From contig JACETJ010000104.1 in the NCBI GenBank assembly GCA_013911345.1, positions 1-5,643 of the forward strand: a DNA stretch of 5,643 nucleotides, read 5' to 3'. This DNA is from Congregibacter sp. (lineage in GTDB: Bacteria; Pseudomonadota; Gammaproteobacteria; Pseudomonadales; Halieaceae). Under the pieces are notes generated by a model. It saw nothing but the letters and a program-made list of their open reading frames with translations, searched no databases and was not told the origin of the DNA. Position 1 is the first letter of the stretch; the number at the start of each line of letters is the position of its first letter. Made by a program: the position numbers and the translations under genes. Below are positions 1 to 5,643 of the stretch, piece after piece.

Positions 1-26
1 GCATCGTTGCAATCGAGGAGTCGCAT
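1..26 (-). CDS. Start of a downstream gene, cut by the window edge
   Basis: An ATG at 26-24 shares one base with the TGA stop (28-26) of the MotA/TolQ/ExbB gene, forming TGATG, a common arrangement for translational re-initiation between co-transcribed genes. The eight readable codons give MRLLDCND, then the window ends. No Shine-Dalgarno sequence precedes the ATG, which fits coupling but also leaves the start uncertain. A second ATG at 4-2 lies in a different frame. In ExbB/TolQ/MotA loci the next gene is often the ExbD/TolR/MotB-type partner, and that is the natural expectation here. Eight residues cannot confirm it. Confidence 0.4.
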
Positions 27-829
27 CAGCTGCGCGGCACCGATAGATGCCGCAGTAGATGGCGATCAATGTAGCGTTGGGTATTGAGTACCAGTCGCTC
101 CTGCGACAACTGCAGCTGATGCAGCGCAAACATGATGATGATCGACAGCACGAGTGCCACGAAGGTGCTGTTAAAGGCCACACCGAGGCTCACGGTGACG
201 CCGGAGATATCCCCCTCGACGGCCTTGTAGGCCTGGCCAAGGGCGTCGCCAATACCGCGCACGGTGCCGATAAATCCAATCGAGGGAATCGCCCAAGATA
301 TGTAGCGCACCATGGAGAGCTCGGAGTCGAGCCGGTCGGCTTCGATATCGCACTGCTCGCGCACGGCATCCGATACCGCCGGGATGCTGCCCGTAGTGGT
401 GAAACGGCTCAGTGCATTCCCTAGTGCCCGGGGCAGCAGGTAGTCCTGCTCTTCCAAAGGGAGCGCCTCTAGTGACCGGGACTGCTCCCGGGCGTCCCGG
501 GGCAGAATGCTGGTGCCCTCGGGGATGGCGACGAGTTCCCGATTCAGCATGTGTGCCTCGGATCGGGTGCGTGAAGCCTTGAGGCCCATGATCGCTAATG
601 CCCAGAGCATCAAAATGAAGCAGGCTTCCTGCTCGTAGTCTTTGATCACGATGGCTAACGATCGGTTACCAGCCGGGGCTTCTCCCGCTGCTTGTTGTGC
701 TGCCTGAACCGCGAGTTGAGAGTCAGCGCTTGGACGGATCACTCCGACGTAAGCGGCGTGCACAACGATCACGGCGAACAGTAGGGCAAACACCTGATAG
801 AGGAACTCTGAGGGTAAACGCAGCTTCAT
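26..829 (-). CDS. MotA/TolQ/ExbB-family proton-channel membrane protein
   Basis: This 267-residue inner-membrane protein belongs to the family whose members form the channel ring of proton-motive-force-driven envelope machines (ExbBD, TolQR, MotAB). Hydrophobic segments lie at about residues 10-31, 70-84, 176-197 and 211-237. The third carries the family signature IPSIGFIGTVRGIGDAL, and the fourth has FNSTFVALVLSI. The channel-lining threonines of TolQ/ExbB appear to be kept as T189 and T222. Residues 87-175 form a charged loop, predicted cytoplasmic, and the C-terminal tail is short (about 30 residues). TolQ and ExbB usually have three membrane segments; the extra N-terminal one here, followed by an Ala/Gln-rich loop (32-69), gives four and implies a cytoplasmic N-terminus. 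The ATG start is well supported: AGGAG sits 6 bases upstream and the previous stop is only 18 bases away. Family assignment is secure. What the motor drives is unknown. Confidence 0.88.
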   Translation of the reverse strand: MKLRLPSEFLYQVFALLFAVIVVHAAYVGVIRPSADSQLAVQAAQQAAGEAPAGNRSLAIVIKDYEQEACFILMLWALAIMGLKASRTRSEAHMLNRELVAIPEGTSILPRDAREQSRSLEALPLEEQDYLLPRALGNALSRFTTTGSIPAVSDAVREQCDIEADRLDSELSMVRYISWAIPSIGFIGTVRGIGDALGQAYKAVEGDISGVTVSLGVAFNSTFVALVLSIIIMFALHQLQLSQERLVLNTQRYIDRHLLRHLSVPRS

Positions 830-835
830 AAAGGG

Positions 836-840
836 CTCCT
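836..840 (-). promoter_or_regulatory. Ribosome binding site of the proton-channel gene
   Basis: On the minus strand AGGAG is followed by a 6-base spacer (CCCTTT) and the ATG at 829-827. It is the strongest Shine-Dalgarno match in the window and sits in the 18-base gap after the small acidic gene. It suggests the channel gene is translated independently of, and perhaps more strongly than, its tightly coupled upstream neighbours. Confidence 0.75.
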
Positions 841-847
841 ATCTGAC

Positions 848-1111
848 TCAGATGTCCACGGGAAAGGACACGGAGAGATCTTCTGAGATGGATTCGGTGG
901 GTTCATAGTCGAGCACGGCCCCCGGTTGTGCGGCTGCAGGGGTACCCGTTGTGTCAGCGGCGGATTCGGCTGACGCTGTGGTCTCTGGCTCAGCCGAGGC
1001 TTCCTCAGGCTCGACCGGATTCTGTCCGAGCGCGGGGGTCACGAGCAACACGCCCAGCAGGGAGGCCAATCTGGCGATGCCCGCAGAGCGTGTTGGCGCT
1101 TTACTCTGCAT
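848..1111 (-). CDS. Small exported acidic protein, unrecognised
   Basis: This 87-residue product matches no family I recognise. Residues 1-29 look like a Sec signal peptide: a basic n-region (K4, R8, R14), a hydrophobic core at 15-25 (LASLLGVLLVT) and an A-L-G cleavage site before Q30. No lipobox cysteine is present. The predicted mature form of 58 residues has 13 Asp/Glu and no Lys, Arg, His or Cys. It consists of a Pro/Ala/Thr/Glu low-complexity stretch (about 30-65) and a more structured-looking C-terminus (69-87, ending SVSFPVDI). I chose the ATG at 1111-1109 because it puts the signal peptide at the N-terminus and has AGGA 9 bases upstream. An in-frame ATG at 1156 would add 15 residues and lacks a good ribosome site. 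The start overlaps the end of the PEGA/FGE-like gene by 11 bases, indicating co-translation. Its place between that gene and the channel gene suggests a periplasmic accessory of the same complex. Confidence 0.72.
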   Translation of the reverse strand: MQSKAPTRSAGIARLASLLGVLLVTPALGQNPVEPEEASAEPETTASAESAADTTGTPAAAQPGAVLDYEPTESISEDLSVSFPVDI

Positions 1112-3224
1112 AGCGCGCAATCCTGAAGCCGAGATCGTCACGGCCGCGCTCCCCATAGTCCCGGAAGGTCAATCGTAGTTCTGACAAGCGACTGAGGGCC
1201 CAACTGCCACCGCGAATGGTGTAGTTGTCGCCGCGTTGTGCGCCCAATGGATCGATCGCGAGCTCGGCATTGGCGGAGGGGATGGCGTAACCGTTGTGTA
1301 CCCATTCGGCAACATTACCACCCATATCGTGCAATCCGCGATGGTTGGCGGGGAAGCTGCCCACGGGTGCCGAGACCACGAATTGATCCGTGTAGCCATT
1401 GAGAATGCGCCCGGTGACCAATGCTGAAGTATTGTCGGCTACGTTGGTCACAACAGCGCTCGGGGGGAAGTCATTACCCCAGGCAAATCGTCGCAGGGCA
1501 TCGCCGTCTACCCGGGCAGCAAAAGCCCATTCCGCCTCGCTCGGCAAGCGATAGCCGGTGCTGCTCGGGTTAAAGCCGATAATGATGCCTTGGTTCTCGC
1601 GGTAGAACGGCGGCAGACCCTCGAGTCGGCTCAGCCAATTACAGAAGCTCGCAGCTTGCTGCCAACTGATGCCTGCCACCGGCTGGTGGTCGCGATCGAG
1701 TGAGTAGCTCTCTATCAGGCCCGAGTCATGGGTGGCTTCGTACTGGCGGAACTGCGCATTAGTGGTTTCAGTGCTCGCAAGATAGAAGGCGCGCCGCAAT
1801 TCAACAGGATGTTCCACTTCGTTGGCGCGGCGTCCGGGGTCGCGGCGCGATGCGCCCATAGTGAAAGGGTTTTGGGTTTCTACCGACGGATCGACCAGCA
1901 CCATCGTTTGGCCCAGCGGCGTGGTAATCGTTGGCGTCATTGCCGCCTTACGCGCAGCAGCCTCTGTCAGCAGCGTGACGCTGATTCGCTGTGGCAGCCC
2001 GGGTTTCGGCAGTACCTCGGTTTCGAAACTGGCATACCCCTCAAGCTGAACGGCGATACGCTGCTGCACCGCAGGGAGAGAGAGGCTTTGACTGCCCGTG
2101 CCCACCCGTTGGCCATTAATGAGTATCTCTGCCTCTGCCGGTTCGATGGCAAAACGGACCTCGCCGAGCTCCGGCGCCAGAGTGACTGACCGGCTGGCGG
2201 TCTCTCCCCGAGAGAGCGTGAGTGACAGACTGGTGCCGCGGTAGCCCGCCTTGGACAGACTGATGGCGTGACTGTCACCCGGACTTAAAGGCAGCACTAC
2301 CGGGGTCAGCCCGGCGAAGGTGCCATCAACCGTGACGCCCGCACCCGGTGGCGAGCTCTCCAGCGTCAGCGTGGCGTCAGCGGGGGTCAGGGTCACCGCG
2401 CCAAGGTCTTGATCCACGCCCGCAACCACATTCAAGGGCAGGGTCACTGGCATAAAACCCGGCGCACTCAGGGTCAGTTCTCTCGGACCCGAGAGCACTT
2501 CAACACCGGTAGCAGTGATGTCGACGGGCTGGCTGTCGACGCTTGCGGTCACGGCGGAGGGAGAGGCGCTGAAGCGAATGTTCGCCCAGTCTGGTAGCAG
2601 CACGATGTCCACGGTCTGGCTCTGGTTGCGGCCAGTGACATCAATTTGCCCCCGCCAGCGCTGGTAACGATCGAGAGTGGCTTCCACTGTATAGATACCC
2701 GCCTCGAGGCTCAGATCAATCAGTGGCGCAGACCCCAGTGACAGCTCATCTAGGATGATCTCACCACCAGCAGGCTGGGTAGTGAGGGTCACGGTGCCAG
2801 GTAGTGGGGCGAGGCGAATATCAAGCTGTTGGGTATCGGCGTCGCCCACCGTCACGGTCTGCTCATAGGGGTGATAGCCCTCGGCATCGATCGACAGCGT
2901 GTAGTCGCCGGGTCGCACTAGTAGCCGTTCGCCGAAGGACCAATTGAGTCCGCTCAACGAGAAGTCGGGTTCTGCCTCGGCATCAATATTGAGGGTGAGG
3001 GAGCGAGCGGTGAACAGAAAAAATAGCAGGGCGGCCACCAGCACCCCGGCGACACCGAGCACGACCTGGGTGACATTGATCCGCCGCCTTTGCTCGGATG
3101 CCTGACTCAGAGGTTCGAAAGCGGTCGCCGCCAGTTGCTCGCTGGTTTGCGCGGCACCCGCTGGCGAGAACGCATCAGGCGTTAGGGTGTCAGGTGTGCC
3201 GGTGTCAGTGTCGCGATCGCTCAT
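1101..3224 (-). CDS. Membrane-anchored PEGA-repeat protein with a cysteine-less FGE-like domain
   Basis: This 707-residue protein has a short, acidic, Thr-rich cytoplasmic N-terminus (1-44), then basic residues RRR (46-48) and a membrane segment at about 51-73, so the rest should face the periplasm. Residues 74-420 form five PEGA-like beta repeats. Residues 437-705 form an FGE-sulfatase (SUMF1/PvdO) fold with its hallmarks: a family-typical N-terminal MVLVDP/FTMGAS stretch (441-459), PVAGISWQQAASFCNWLS (515-532), YRLPSEAEWAFAAR (558-571), GLHDMGGNVAEW (630-641), YTIRGGSW (668-675) and LGFRIAR (698-704). True FGEs oxidise a sulfatase cysteine using two copper-binding cysteines shortly after the GGS motif. 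Those positions are L677 and S681/E682 here, and the only cysteine in the protein is C528. It is therefore probably a binding or scaffold domain. The ATG follows the previous stop by 9 bases with only a weak GAG ribosome site. The gene overlaps the next one by 11 bases. Calling it an active FGE would be wrong on the sequence. Confidence 0.9.
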   Translation of the reverse strand: MSDRDTDTGTPDTLTPDAFSPAGAAQTSEQLAATAFEPLSQASEQRRRINVTQVVLGVAGVLVAALLFFLFTARSLTLNIDAEAEPDFSLSGLNWSFGERLLVRPGDYTLSIDAEGYHPYEQTVTVGDADTQQLDIRLAPLPGTVTLTTQPAGGEIILDELSLGSAPLIDLSLEAGIYTVEATLDRYQRWRGQIDVTGRNQSQTVDIVLLPDWANIRFSASPSAVTASVDSQPVDITATGVEVLSGPRELTLSAPGFMPVTLPLNVVAGVDQDLGAVTLTPADATLTLESSPPGAGVTVDGTFAGLTPVVLPLSPGDSHAISLSKAGYRGTSLSLTLSRGETASRSVTLAPELGEVRFAIEPAEAEILINGQRVGTGSQSLSLPAVQQRIAVQLEGYASFETEVLPKPGLPQRISVTLLTEAAARKAAMTPTITTPLGQTMVLVDPSVETQNPFTMGASRRDPGRRANEVEHPVELRRAFYLASTETTNAQFRQYEATHDSGLIESYSLDRDHQPVAGISWQQAASFCNWLSRLEGLPPFYRENQGIIIGFNPSSTGYRLPSEAEWAFAARVDGDALRRFAWGNDFPPSAVVTNVADNTSALVTGRILNGYTDQFVVSAPVGSFPANHRGLHDMGGNVAEWVHNGYAIPSANAELAIDPLGAQRGDNYTIRGGSWALSRLSELRLTFRDYGERGRDDLGFRIARYAE
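1110..1916 (-). other. FGE-sulfatase (SUMF1-like) domain, predicted catalytically inactive
   Basis: This segment encodes residues 437-705 of the PEGA/FGE-like protein. Fold motifs are intact, including LPSEAEWAFAAR and GGNVAEW, which belong to the conserved core of the family. The catalytic CxxxxC pair after GGS is replaced by RGGSWALSRLSEL (671-683), with no cysteine. The fold looks preserved and the chemistry lost, as in other non-FGE members such as the gliding/T9SS protein GldK. Confidence 0.85.
1121..1124 (-). promoter_or_regulatory. Ribosome binding site that decides the start of the small acidic gene
   Basis: AGGA on the minus strand lies 9 bases before the ATG at 1111-1109, inside the last codons of the PEGA/FGE-like gene. 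It favours this start over the in-frame ATG at 1156. Confidence 0.5.
1968..3005 (-). other. Five tandem PEGA-like beta repeats (protein level)
   Basis: These are residues 74-140, 142-210, 213-280, 283-350 and 353-419 of the 707-residue protein, each of about 67-69 residues. The shared pattern is a strand (TLTLESSP), a PxGA-type turn with a small VDG-like hairpin, an L-x-PG-x-Y/H-x-(I/L) strand, a GY or RY turn, and a closing V-T/D-(I/L)-x-L-x-P strand. Repeat 4 is the most canonical (SSPPGAGVTVDGTFAGLTP, 290-308). Repeats 1 and 3 are the most divergent. They are well diverged at DNA level, so they are an old array and not a recent expansion. PEGA domains are typical of surface or periplasmic scaffold proteins. 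Their ligand here is unknown. Confidence 0.8.
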
Positions 3225-3233
3225 GGTGTTGGC

Positions 3234-4763
3234 TCAAATCGTCTCAACACAGCGTACCTCGACCGCATTCGTTTGGTCAGGCCGTACCTCAAATTTCACG
3301 CGGACATCACGGTATCCGTTGCGAATCCCCACGGCGCTATACACGCCGGGACGCAGAGACAGCGTTTGCTCTGAAAGGGTTCCGAGCCGTCTCACGCGTA
3401 ACAGGGTGATATCGGTGAGCCCATCGGAGGTCATGGTCACCGCGACCGGGGTGCTGGCATAGGCGAGGGTGTCTTGCGCTGCAGCGATCTGGCCTTGCAG
3501 TCGCGGGCCTGGACTCGCAATGGCTTCTGCCTCGGCAAGTGTTTCCTGCGCGAGGCGCATGATGCGCGCATCGATGAGGCGATCGCGCTCTTTTGGCATG
3601 TTCTCCAGCCGGCTATCAAGATCAGCCCGCGGCTCGGTGCGTGCCACCCCCTCCGTGGCGAACAACATGAGCGCGTCGATTTCCAGGGCGTTTTTGTAAA
3701 GGCCCACTGCATCGTCCCAGCGCTCTTCTGCTTCCGCCTGGGCACCGTCCGCTCGCAGCTCAAGCAAGGTGTTTTGGGTGCGCGCCTGCTCGAGTTCAAT
3801 CAGCGCGGCGGCGGGCTCGGGCGCGCCTGGGATCAGCTGAGCGGCCGTACGGAATTGCTGCTCAGCAGTGTCGAAGGCCTTAGCCCCCATGGCCCCATAG
3901 CCCGCCGTCATAGCGTCGTTGAATTGTTGCTGGGTCAGTGCGGTGCTCAGCTCACCGAGGCGCGCAGCTGCCCGCTGGTGTGCTGGGTCTGCTCGCGTTG
4001 CGTCACCCGCAGCCTCGACGGCGGCAGTGAGATCACCCGTCGCTTCAGCCTCAGCGGCGCGCTCCAGTGCAGCGATCACACTAGGGAGGCCGGTGATGCG
4101 GTCTTCGAGGGAGACCAGCCGGATATCAGTTGGCGCCATCTCTGAGAGCTCAGTGAAGCGAGCCTGAGCGGACAATACCTCGCCCGCTTCAATCGCGCCT
4201 GTCAGGGTTTCGTGGAGCGCTTCAATCCGCTCGGGCAGGCTCGCTTCGAGGACGAGTAGCTGATCGAGTGCGCGCTGGTAATCCGCGGTTGCCGCGGCAA
4301 ACTCGCGCTCGCGGTAGGCCGTGTCACCTGCAGCGGCTGCTTCTAGCGCTGTGCTGTAGTCGGGCTCCCCCCAATTGGGCGCACCGCGCTCGGCCAGCGA
4401 TTCCTGCAGGGATAGCAAGGCCTGTAAGGCCTCTTGAGCCTCGCGTCTGAGTGCACTTTCTTGTGCTTCGGCAAAGGGGCTTCGCCCGTTACCCGCTTCG
4501 CCCGCAGCGCTAGTGGGTGCAGAGATGCTGCCCGAGGCTGTGGCCGTGGATTGTCCAGTTTCCAACGCAGGTGCTGCGCTATCCGGCGCCACCAGTTGGG
4601 GCAACACGAAAAAGACGAAAACGAGCAACACAGCGGCGGCGGCAAGGCCGATGAAGATCGCCCGCGACTGATCCCCTCCCGAGGCTGCGGCAACCGATTC
4701 TGGATGGGTTGTCGCGGGTTCAAAGGTGGTAGCGGAAAGGGGCTGCTCTTTGTGGTCGGTCAC
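3234..4763 (-). CDS. Single-pass membrane protein with periplasmic TPRs and a C-terminal PEGA-like domain
   Basis: This 509-residue protein has a short N-terminus (1-34), one membrane segment (35-56), a low-complexity Ala/Ser/Thr/Gly linker (57-95) and a long helical domain. Within it, four stretches fit TPR pairs: about 137-170 (AAAGDTAYREREFAAATADY), 228-262, 278-312 (KAFDTAEQQFRTAAQLIPGA) and 330-363 (ERWDDAVGLYKNALEIDA). A further helical region covers 388-435. Residues 438-507 form a beta-rich, PEGA-like unit with LRPGVYSAVGIRNGYRDVRV, much like repeat 1 of the next gene's protein. TPRs mediate protein-protein contacts, so an assembly role is likely; no enzyme motif is seen. The GTG start at 4763-4761 overlaps the previous stop as GTGA, with AGGA only 3 bases upstream. 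The spacer is short, but coupling explains it. The N-terminus carries LSATTFEP (9-16), shared with the next protein. Confidence 0.85.
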   Translation of the reverse strand: MTDHKEQPLSATTFEPATTHPESVAAASGGDQSRAIFIGLAAAAVLLVFVFFVLPQLVAPDSAAPALETGQSTATASGSISAPTSAAGEAGNGRSPFAEAQESALRREAQEALQALLSLQESLAERGAPNWGEPDYSTALEAAAAGDTAYREREFAAATADYQRALDQLLVLEASLPERIEALHETLTGAIEAGEVLSAQARFTELSEMAPTDIRLVSLEDRITGLPSVIAALERAAEAEATGDLTAAVEAAGDATRADPAHQRAAARLGELSTALTQQQFNDAMTAGYGAMGAKAFDTAEQQFRTAAQLIPGAPEPAAALIELEQARTQNTLLELRADGAQAEAEERWDDAVGLYKNALEIDALMLFATEGVARTEPRADLDSRLENMPKERDRLIDARIMRLAQETLAEAEAIASPGPRLQGQIAAAQDTLAYASTPVAVTMTSDGLTDITLLRVRRLGTLSEQTLSLRPGVYSAVGIRNGYRDVRVKFEVRPDQTNAVEVRCVETI

Positions 4764-5643
4764 GAGTCCTGCGGTTCAGGCGTCGGGAGTAGTGGGGTCT
4801 CGGCTGCCGCAGCCGGTGGCTCCAGTGCAGCGAGTTCTGCTGCGTAGATATCGGCCAGCAATTCGCGCCACTGGTCGTATTGATCTTCGACATTACCGGT
4901 GAGGCGAACGGTGCGGTCCTCCAGCTCAATCACCCGAGGTGTGATTTCGGCGTCCAGTGACTGGCCAAGTTCTTCCAGTGCCAAAGAGTGGATATTGGAT
5001 TCGGCGCGTTTCTCCATGCCGCTCTTCAACAGGGCGCCACCGCCAATGACACCAACGGCGCCCGCGCTTCGCGTCGTGCGACTACCCGAGCCTTGCGCCA
5101 CAATGCCAGCAATAATGGCCGCGCCGCCGGCAATCATTTCTCGCCGAGCCTCGGTCTCTAACTCGCGCAGGGCAACGGTCTCCTCATAGCTTGCTTTTCG
5201 CCACTCCTGATAGGGGACATACATGTCCTCCGCAAAGCCGGAGTAGTGGCCCTGAAGCGTGTCGACAAACACATAATGTCGCTGACGCAGGCCGCGCACG
5301 CGATTCAGCATGGGGTCATCCTCAGCTGGCAGTCTGCGCAGGCTGATGTGCCCGGCCTCGTCTTCATCAAGGTAATCGGCGAAGGCGCCACTGGCAAAAT
5401 CGCGGGCGAAGCGCATCTCTGCCACTTGCCGGATCGTGACGCGATCCTCGGCGGGCACCTTGTTAAAAATGGCCAACATGTCGTTGGCGATCATGCGGTA
5501 TACCGCAAGGAAGGGATCCTGCTTCACCCTTGTCCCCTGCTCGTAGGCGTAGCGGCTGGTGATGCCTTGGTAGCGCTTATCGAGCCACAGTGTGCCGCGC
5601 GCATCGCTCACCAGAATTTTCAGTTCCAGCGCTTCGCCATCTG
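4760..5643 (-). CDS. Unrecognised envelope-type protein, 5' end outside the window
   Basis: This is the C-terminal 293 residues of a longer protein. A GTG at 5611-5609 could be taken for the start, but the frame stays open to the edge and the codons before it read DGEALELKIL, which runs smoothly into a beta-strand (VSDARGTLWLDKRYQG). No ribosome site precedes that GTG, so I treat the gene as truncated. Counting from the GTG: a mixed region with QDPFLAVYRMIANDMLA (31-47); a charged helical region with MYVPYQEWRKASYEETVALR (130-149); a Gly/Ala-rich hydrophobic segment broken by a polar stretch (158-197); helices with RTVRLTGNVEDQYDQWRELL (233-252); and a Pro/Ala-rich tail (264-283). I do not recognise the family and see no catalytic motif. 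The missing N-terminus could hold a signal peptide or lipobox. Its stop overlaps the next start (GTGA), placing it in the same operon. Confidence 0.8.
   Translation of the reverse strand, partial: DGEALELKILVSDARGTLWLDKRYQGITSRYAYEQGTRVKQDPFLAVYRMIANDMLAIFNKVPAEDRVTIRQVAEMRFARDFASGAFADYLDEDEAGHISLRRLPAEDDPMLNRVRGLRQRHYVFVDTLQGHYSGFAEDMYVPYQEWRKASYEETVALRELETEARREMIAGGAAIIAGIVAQGSGSRTTRSAGAVGVIGGGALLKSGMEKRAESNIHSLALEELGQSLDAEITPRVIELEDRTVRLTGNVEDQYDQWRELLADIYAAELAALEPPAAAAETPLLPTPEPQDS
4767..4770 (-). promoter_or_regulatory. Closely spaced ribosome site before a GTG start
   Basis: AGGA on the minus strand is separated from the GTG at 4763-4761 by only three bases (CTC), shorter than the usual 5-9. 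With the GTGA stop/start overlap, it suggests that the TPR/PEGA gene is read mainly by ribosomes finishing the upstream gene. Confidence 0.4.

Follow-up and report, generated by a model that had tools for sequence, protein, structure and literature searches.

What apparatus, if any, do the tightly packed genes of a 5,643-nucleotide stretch of Congregibacter sp. (assembly GCA_013911345.1, contig JACETJ010000104.1) build together? This whole stretch is called the window below. An initial annotation had proposed an uncharacterised proton-driven envelope machine composed of an ExbB/MotA-like channel, a scaffold protein with PEGA and FGE-like (formylglycine-generating enzyme) domains, and a TPR/PEGA protein. 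We compared the window with related loci, and we put at about two in three the probability that this operon builds a proton-driven force-transducing machine spanning the whole envelope, in which the scaffold, the lipoproteins, a small exported protein and an Hsp70-fold protein have the roles laid out below, and whose likeliest job is envelope upkeep or export. The window covers the central part of a gene cluster, conserved in marine and other gammaproteobacteria, whose genes we call A to M; the motor partners lie just outside the window.

Unity of the gene cluster

All genes of the window lie on the minus strand, and the order of transcription is C (partial), D, E, F, G and the first codons of H. 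Adjacent genes overlap by 4 bases (C/D), 11 bases (E/F) or 1 base (G/H), or are separated by 9 bases (D-E) or 18 bases (F-G), which bears out the six co-directional, tightly coupled genes of the initial annotation.

As close relatives we took the best 80 of 268 stretches that were confirmed in a scan with G. The names on these 80 were Halieaceae or its genera, or merely gammaproteobacteria or proteobacteria, with Alteromonadaceae occurring once; the nearest was 99% identical to the window, and Luminiphilus was a common name among the closest. Intact clusters (L016, L025, L035) contain 13 genes, A to M. The cluster genes detected keep the A-to-M order on one strand in 80/80 loci, and all 13 were present in 37 of the 80 at the cut-off used, contig ends having cut many of the others.

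We then considered more distant genomes. A profile of J matched 29 of 321 genomes of the class, and a wider J profile matched 72 of 293 genomes of the order (68 strongly) and 21 of 398 genomes of the phylum (16 strongly); these samples overlap in some genomes. The weak matches (4 of the 72, at least 2 of the 29 and 5 of the 21, with E-values of about 1e-4 or in a short locus without cluster genes) are probably chance matches to coiled coils. We fetched 93 wider loci and mapped 91; L162 and L182 were left out because no J frame was kept there, though the genome search had found J. The 91 mapped loci contain J in 91 cases, G in 86, I in 85, E in 83, D in 81, C in 76, B in 68, H in 65 (66 with L125, where it was found by tblastn), K in 61, F in 60 (by profile), L in 56, A in 51 and M in 46. 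Their order is B-C-D-E-F-G-(H)-I-J, with an H-I-J-G variant in L119 and L124, and the B-J order recurs in diverged genomes in which the reading frames on either side vary in size and strand. Among the same 321 genomes C was found in 23 and J in 29, of which 22 were common to both; J occurred without C in seven, and at least two of those J matches were weak.

Because 80/80 loci keep one order on one strand and the core recurs in diverged genomes, the conservation of the cluster is beyond chance. The genes are clustered and not scattered, as the initial annotation had expected, and by these sequence comparisons the gene set and its unity can be regarded as shown.

Two kinds of unusual copies were also observed. 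Genome G189 (L235:10369-13173) has a decayed copy near repeated transposase-like genes, with C broken into two pieces and D into three; it is the only C without J in the class sample. HTCC2080 (L130, G002 C18), G426, G581 and G478 (L219-L221) have diverged second copies, C-D-E-G-I-J without H, beside an H-bearing copy.

The motor genes G, I and J

G belongs to the family PF01618 (E-value 1.5e-13; 51 bits against a gathering cut-off of 22.9), in agreement with the ExbB/MotA-like channel described at first. It missed the NCBIfam cut-offs for TolQ or ExbB proper, with 27.5 of 221 bits for tolQ and 20.1 of 135.35 bits for exbB2. When G from 18 chosen loci and the window was aligned with TolQ/ExbB-like paralogues from seven genomes, T189 and T222 were kept in 19/19 G rows, and the paralogue L150 was without the second Thr in this alignment. 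In the tree, G formed a clade separate from 26 TolQ/ExbB-like paralogues with a support of 100/100; these 26 are not every PF01618 match of those genomes, L151 was counted as a G gene, and L144 (wrong frame), L157 (cut), L152 (no Thr at the first position, and resembling another branch) and duplicates were left out. Luminiphilus syltensis has a separate TolQ above the 221-bit cut-off (L134). A true TolQ gene also lies on the same strand six reading frames past the cluster in another genome (L120:1945-2730).

The initial annotation had suggested looking for an ExbD/MotB-type partner below position 1 of the window. Such a partner is present in the relatives, as a pair: I and J lie downstream of G, and in each an N-terminal helix with an Asp is followed by a coiled-coil-like stretch and a putative vWA-type domain with a metal-site motif. 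The motor is thus not incomplete. The helices are of the FLDIMSCG or FLDVICCG type, with the Asp placed as in ExbD, TolR and MotB. This Asp was conserved in 83/83 I proteins, of which ten were read from a CTG codon farther upstream, and in 86/86 J proteins, and the stricter pattern FLDxxxC[GA] was found in 70 of the 83 and 78 of the 86. The metal-site motif DxSxS occurred in 83/83 I and 86/86 J. Against the Pfam vWA cut-off of 27, I scored 31.3 (VWA_3) and 27.1 (VWA_2) in L016, 29.2 (VWA_2) in L117, 38.2 (VWA_2) in L127 and 26.0 in L035, and J was below the cut-off in all four proteins scanned (L016, L035, L127, L120). I and J occur together, next to a TolQ-like gene and without tolR or exbD, in 85 of the 91 mapped loci; in the six loci where the two were not both mapped, genome searches gave the second match in the same genome, beside J in five.

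An unusual start was seen in an H-less clade (L223-L232), where in 10/10 loci the FLD helix of I begins upstream of any ATG, GTG or TTG that would leave the helix whole. A CTG stands at the expected start, and I may start there.

The roles of the pore threonines and of the helix Asp of ExbD, TolR and MotB are stated in PMC12204202 (2025, Mol Biol Evol). Passages of that paper predict heterologous pairs of helix-plus-vWA proteins encoded with TolQ-like genes without tolR or exbD, and model the vWA pairs inside the TolQ-like pentamer. From sequence comparison, I and J appear to match this family in every tested feature except for Pfam confirmation of the vWA domain of J. These results strongly suggest that the cluster has a proton motor.

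Scaffold, exported peptide and cytoplasmic partner

E combines PEGA (E-value 9.3e-41, five stretches) with an FGE-sulfatase match (1.2e-38) in Pfam, which confirms the PEGA/FGE-like scaffold first described, and it carries a membrane helix near its N-terminus. Among solved structures, the best match of its FGE-like domain was PorK (2e-17; 1.4e-17 for chains of the same aligned sequence titled 'Lipoprotein, putative'), and lower-ranked matches were a CotH-titled chain (3.2e-12) and FGEs (best 1e-11). The active-site Cys residues of FGEs are located near the C-terminus. Since 0/82 E proteins had a Cys in the last 75 residues, the candidate role of E as an active FGE enzyme was rejected. FGEs require their active-site Cys residues, and the Cys-less FGE fold of PorK is described as a docking hub, part of a ring that is served by a proton motor, both in passages of PMC12421860. 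The parallel with GldK drawn in the initial annotation is therefore stronger than was first thought, in view of the PorK match and the missing Cys. Because E fell below the NCBIfam cut-off for GldK (TIGR03525, 101.5 of 350 bits) and has an N-terminal membrane helix, we regard this likeness as the parallel use of one fold. Some relatives have an extra N-terminus on E (L113, L114, L117, L118, L122), in which an FHA domain was suspected; Pfam at 0.01 gave none in L114, L117, L118 and L122.

For D, described at first as a TPR/PEGA protein, Pfam gave weak TPR matches only, and no PEGA. In profile comparison its C-termini matched the PEGA repeats of E with a probability of 94%, against 0.9, 11 and 19% in three control comparisons; the PEGA-like end was thus found by profile and not by Pfam. 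In L117, L118 and L122 a Ser/Thr kinase is fused to the N-terminus of D (5.1e-41 to 3.9e-29, Pfam), and this terminus is therefore cytoplasmic. The fusion suggests that D may be under phosphorylation control in the cytoplasm. The D protein of L185 (761 residues) may also bear a kinase.

F had no Pfam domain, and its N-terminus reads as signal-like. We searched for open reading frames (ORFs) of 30-180 residues that end in PxD[IV] and lie no more than 700 bases after E. This pattern, which was composed after examples were known and fixes positions -4, -2 and -1, was found in 78/83 loci, compared with 5/14,611 ORFs elsewhere in the same loci. The F ORFs have 41 to 162 residues, and 76/78 contain a signal-like hydrophobic stretch. 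Their constant part is the end: Pro, any residue, Asp, Ile. F or Y stands at -5 in 68/78 and Asp at -10 in 64/78, and nearby positions are otherwise variable. The F proteins found by profile end in DI in 59/60 cases and in DV in one. Five loci failed the PxD[IV] search (L123, L125, L189, L191, L226); among them, the profile-found F of L125 ends in PADI, an ORF of L191 ends in PADF, and an ORF of L226 ends in FPVDI but lies farther on. Because the conservation reaches the last residue, the free carboxyl end is probably recognised, and the role of F seems to be to present its C-terminus. As a first guess, by analogy with the binding mode of other vWA domains, the terminal Asp could be a ligand of a vWA metal site.

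The predicted model of H has the fold of the Hsp70 nucleotide-binding domain. In 139 rows, which include some genomes twice, we compared H with what we take to be the Hsp70 loop sequences and their placing; the Gly-rich phosphate loops of an active ATPase were not found, and the loop positions were commonly Asn-Asp and Glu-Leu-Gln-Leu-His-Gln. The cytoplasmic tail motif of E was present in 64/64 loci with H and in 0/18 loci without it, a match that rests on only four independent changes; L125 was counted with H because of its tblastn match, and L226 was left out because E is cut there at the contig end. By analogy, we infer that H may be a non-catalytic clamp on the cytoplasmic tails of E. In PilM-PilN and FtsA-FtsN, as described in passages of PMC7613929, a cytoplasmic protein of the actin/Hsp70 superfamily likewise stands beside bitopic partners with short conserved tails. 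However, H has altered phosphate loops and resembles the nucleotide domain of Hsp70, and a tail clamp formed by it is putative. Neither of two lists of fold matches for H showed PilM, FtsA or GspL among its 50 listed entries.

The C fragment in the window had one Pfam match, below the cut-off. In relatives C is about 400 residues long; it bears a lipobox-like Cys and combines an alpha/beta domain with an extended helical region that contains a Gly-rich hydrophobic stretch. Its first domain resembles PelC/CsgG/FlgT chains and the TolB N-domain, among others, and C may thus bear a domain of the PelC/CsgG/FlgT/TolB type, as far as the models indicate. A lone C-like lipoprotein gene with no motor genes nearby was seen in L. 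syltensis (L234:7539-8702).

A is a TPR protein and B a Ser-rich lipoprotein, and the sequences of K and L read as those of lipoproteins. A TonB C-terminal domain was suspected at the end of A, where Pfam gave none. M is an M48 peptidase (6.2e-36, Pfam) and, like K and L, a lipoprotein; these three genes end the cluster in many genomes (L016:14108-16927 and equivalents) and are possible assembly or quality-control parts. The features of the window are listed in Table 1.

Table 1. Positions of genes and motifs in the window (1 to 5,643).
Feature	Position	Strand	Basis
C, lipoprotein, 5' end beyond the window	4760..5643	minus	
D, bitopic: short cytoplasmic tail, transmembrane helix, TPR-like region, PEGA-like C-terminus	3234..4763	minus	Pfam and profile comparison
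Motif LSATTFEP in the cytoplasmic tail of D	4716..4739	minus	Sequence; pattern counts in relatives
E, bitopic: cytoplasmic tail, transmembrane helix, five PEGA stretches, Cys-less FGE-like domain	1101..3224	minus	Pfam, structure match, Cys count
E tail motif 1, LTPDAFSP	3162..3185	minus	Sequence; counts in relatives
E tail motif 2, LAATAFEP	3111..3134	minus	Sequence; counts in relatives
F, small exported acidic protein, signal-like N-terminus, conserved C-terminal end	848..1111	minus	Start codon assigned here
FPVDI, C-terminus of F (family end PxD[IV])	851..865	minus	78/83 loci vs 5/14,611 other small ORFs
G, MotA/TolQ/ExbB-type channel subunit, 267 residues	26..829	minus	PF01618 1.5e-13; clade support 100/100 vs 26 paralogues
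G Thr189, aligned with the first TolQ/ExbB channel threonine	263..265	minus	19/19 G rows
G Thr222, aligned with the second channel threonine	164..166	minus	19/19 G rows
H, first codons (MRLLDCND) of the Hsp70-fold gene	1..26	minus	Remainder of H, then I and J, past this end in 80 relatives

The proposed machine and its alternatives

We infer the following layout, roles of H, C and F, and job. G would form a pentamer, and I and J, perhaps one of each, would form an axle; given this arrangement, proton flow would turn the axle with its periplasmic vWA domains. E and D would surround the motor, anchored in the inner membrane, and their PEGA repeats and the FGE-like docking domain would extend through the periplasm. 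On the cytoplasmic side, H would grip the tails of E, and often those of D too, as PilM does with PilN and FtsA with FtsN. C and B would be outer-membrane lipoproteins, C perhaps forming a ring, and F would be an exported peptide whose Asp-Ile-COOH end docks into one periplasmic site, for which the vWA metal site is the first guess. The likeliest job would be to exert force on an outer-membrane or peptidoglycan partner in envelope upkeep or export; flagellar motion and iron uptake are less likely. A more specific form, a trans-envelope rotary motor in which the metal site of a heterodimeric I/J vWA axle grips the Asp of F to couple or uncouple an outer-membrane target while H clamps the E tails, is doubtful as a whole.

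Several other explanations were weighed. The cluster might encode a secretion or surface-motility machine like the type 9 secretion system (T9SS) or Agl, in which the proton motor moves an FGE-like, vWA-bearing apparatus and surface proteins are thereby exported or dragged along. GldKLMN/PorKLMN of type 9 secretion and gliding have in common with the cluster a proton motor and a Cys-less FGE-like periplasmic protein, and both the PorK/GldK match of E, with its docking-hub fold (PMC12421860, passages), and the PelC/CsgG/FlgT likeness of C would suit such a machine. However, the channel and axle families differ, and GldM, GldN and the translocon were not seen among the cluster proteins scanned. 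GldK/PorK is an outer-membrane lipoprotein, whereas E is a predicted inner-membrane PEGA protein that misses the GldK cut-off by far and is the only T9SS-like protein among those scanned with Pfam, the genes flanking A to M not being annotated. Adhesion is a frequent role of vWA metal sites, which would agree with this explanation, but we consider it unlikely. If the cluster were a divergent Tol-Pal or Ton system, in which other parts had taken over the usual job, this could account for the channel threonines and the axle Asp, and perhaps for the TolB-N-like domain of C. Against this stand the separate clade of G, its scores far below the TolQ and ExbB cut-offs, and the failure of Pfam to give a TolA- or Pal-type domain among the proteins scanned; the cluster also has a candidate vWA axle pair, a PEGA/FGE protein and an Hsp70-fold protein. 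Since a TolQ is encoded separately in both L. syltensis and the L120 genome, the cluster adds to Tol-Pal there, and such a substitution is improbable.

It is still less probable that the cluster is a system for signalling or conflict, with kinase, vWA, Hsp70-fold and FGE parts, in which the proton gradient is sensed, in the manner of Zorya or the nucleoside triphosphate (NTP)-dependent systems of PMC7159879. Passages of that paper name vWA, Hsp70 and FGE-type domains in such systems, and three relatives have a kinase on D; yet ExbB and TolQ are absent from its main text. When PADLOC was run on five window proteins, the sole match was a weak one to ZorA (E-value 0.031). Moreover, most defence systems are not known to keep one gene order, unlike the 80 loci here. 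Finally, the genes might simply have remained neighbours and not be parts of a single machine. Gene order among close relatives is preserved for unrelated reasons as well, and many of the 80 loci also retain a hydrolase gene on the minus strand beside the cluster. The recurrence of the B-J order between differing flanks, the match to J in 22 of the 23 genomes with C, and the joint change of the E tail motif and H leave this explanation scarcely credible. As an identity for the cluster, Tol-Pal, Ton, Mot and Zorya were rejected on the NCBIfam scores, the PADLOC result, the separate G clade and the separate TolQ genes; the genes next to the window complete none of them, which agrees with the first description.

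The proposed force-transducing machine can be set beside previously known systems. To our knowledge, few proton-driven envelope motors are known, namely flagellar stators, Ton, Tol, Agl, gliding/T9SS and Zorya. A list in passages of PMC12505986 agrees with this one. The closest likeness is to the TPH-vWA force transducers of PMC12204202 (section 8, Idiomarina family), which share with the cluster a TolQ-like gene, the absence of tolR/exbD, a heterologous pair of vWA proteins (putative in the case of J) and an ExbD-like helix with Asp. They are a prediction only, and PEGA/FGE, the Hsp70-fold gene, the small F and the lipoprotein C are unmentioned in section 8 and other passages; 'formylglycine' and 'sulfatase' occur 0 times in the main text. 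For its other vWA family, that paper states that no deletion phenotype has been reported. Beyond it, our search, which did not include bioRxiv preprints and included few subscription papers, found no paper joining TolQ-type motors with vWA proteins. The term 'uncharacterised' in the initial annotation thus holds for experiments and not in the sense of unreported, because the motor core was already predicted in 2025 (PMC12204202, passages). The wider equipment is described here: the PxD[IV] end of F, the fold of H and the matched tail motif of E, the possible domain of C, and the Cys-less PorK-like FGE domain of E are new.

This cluster offers three directly testable features, namely a perhaps two-protein axle, a peptide conserved to its free carboxyl end, and an Hsp70-fold protein whose presence goes with a tail motif. 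With any of them, the coupling of such a motor to the outer membrane could be tested through a single residue or a single gene.

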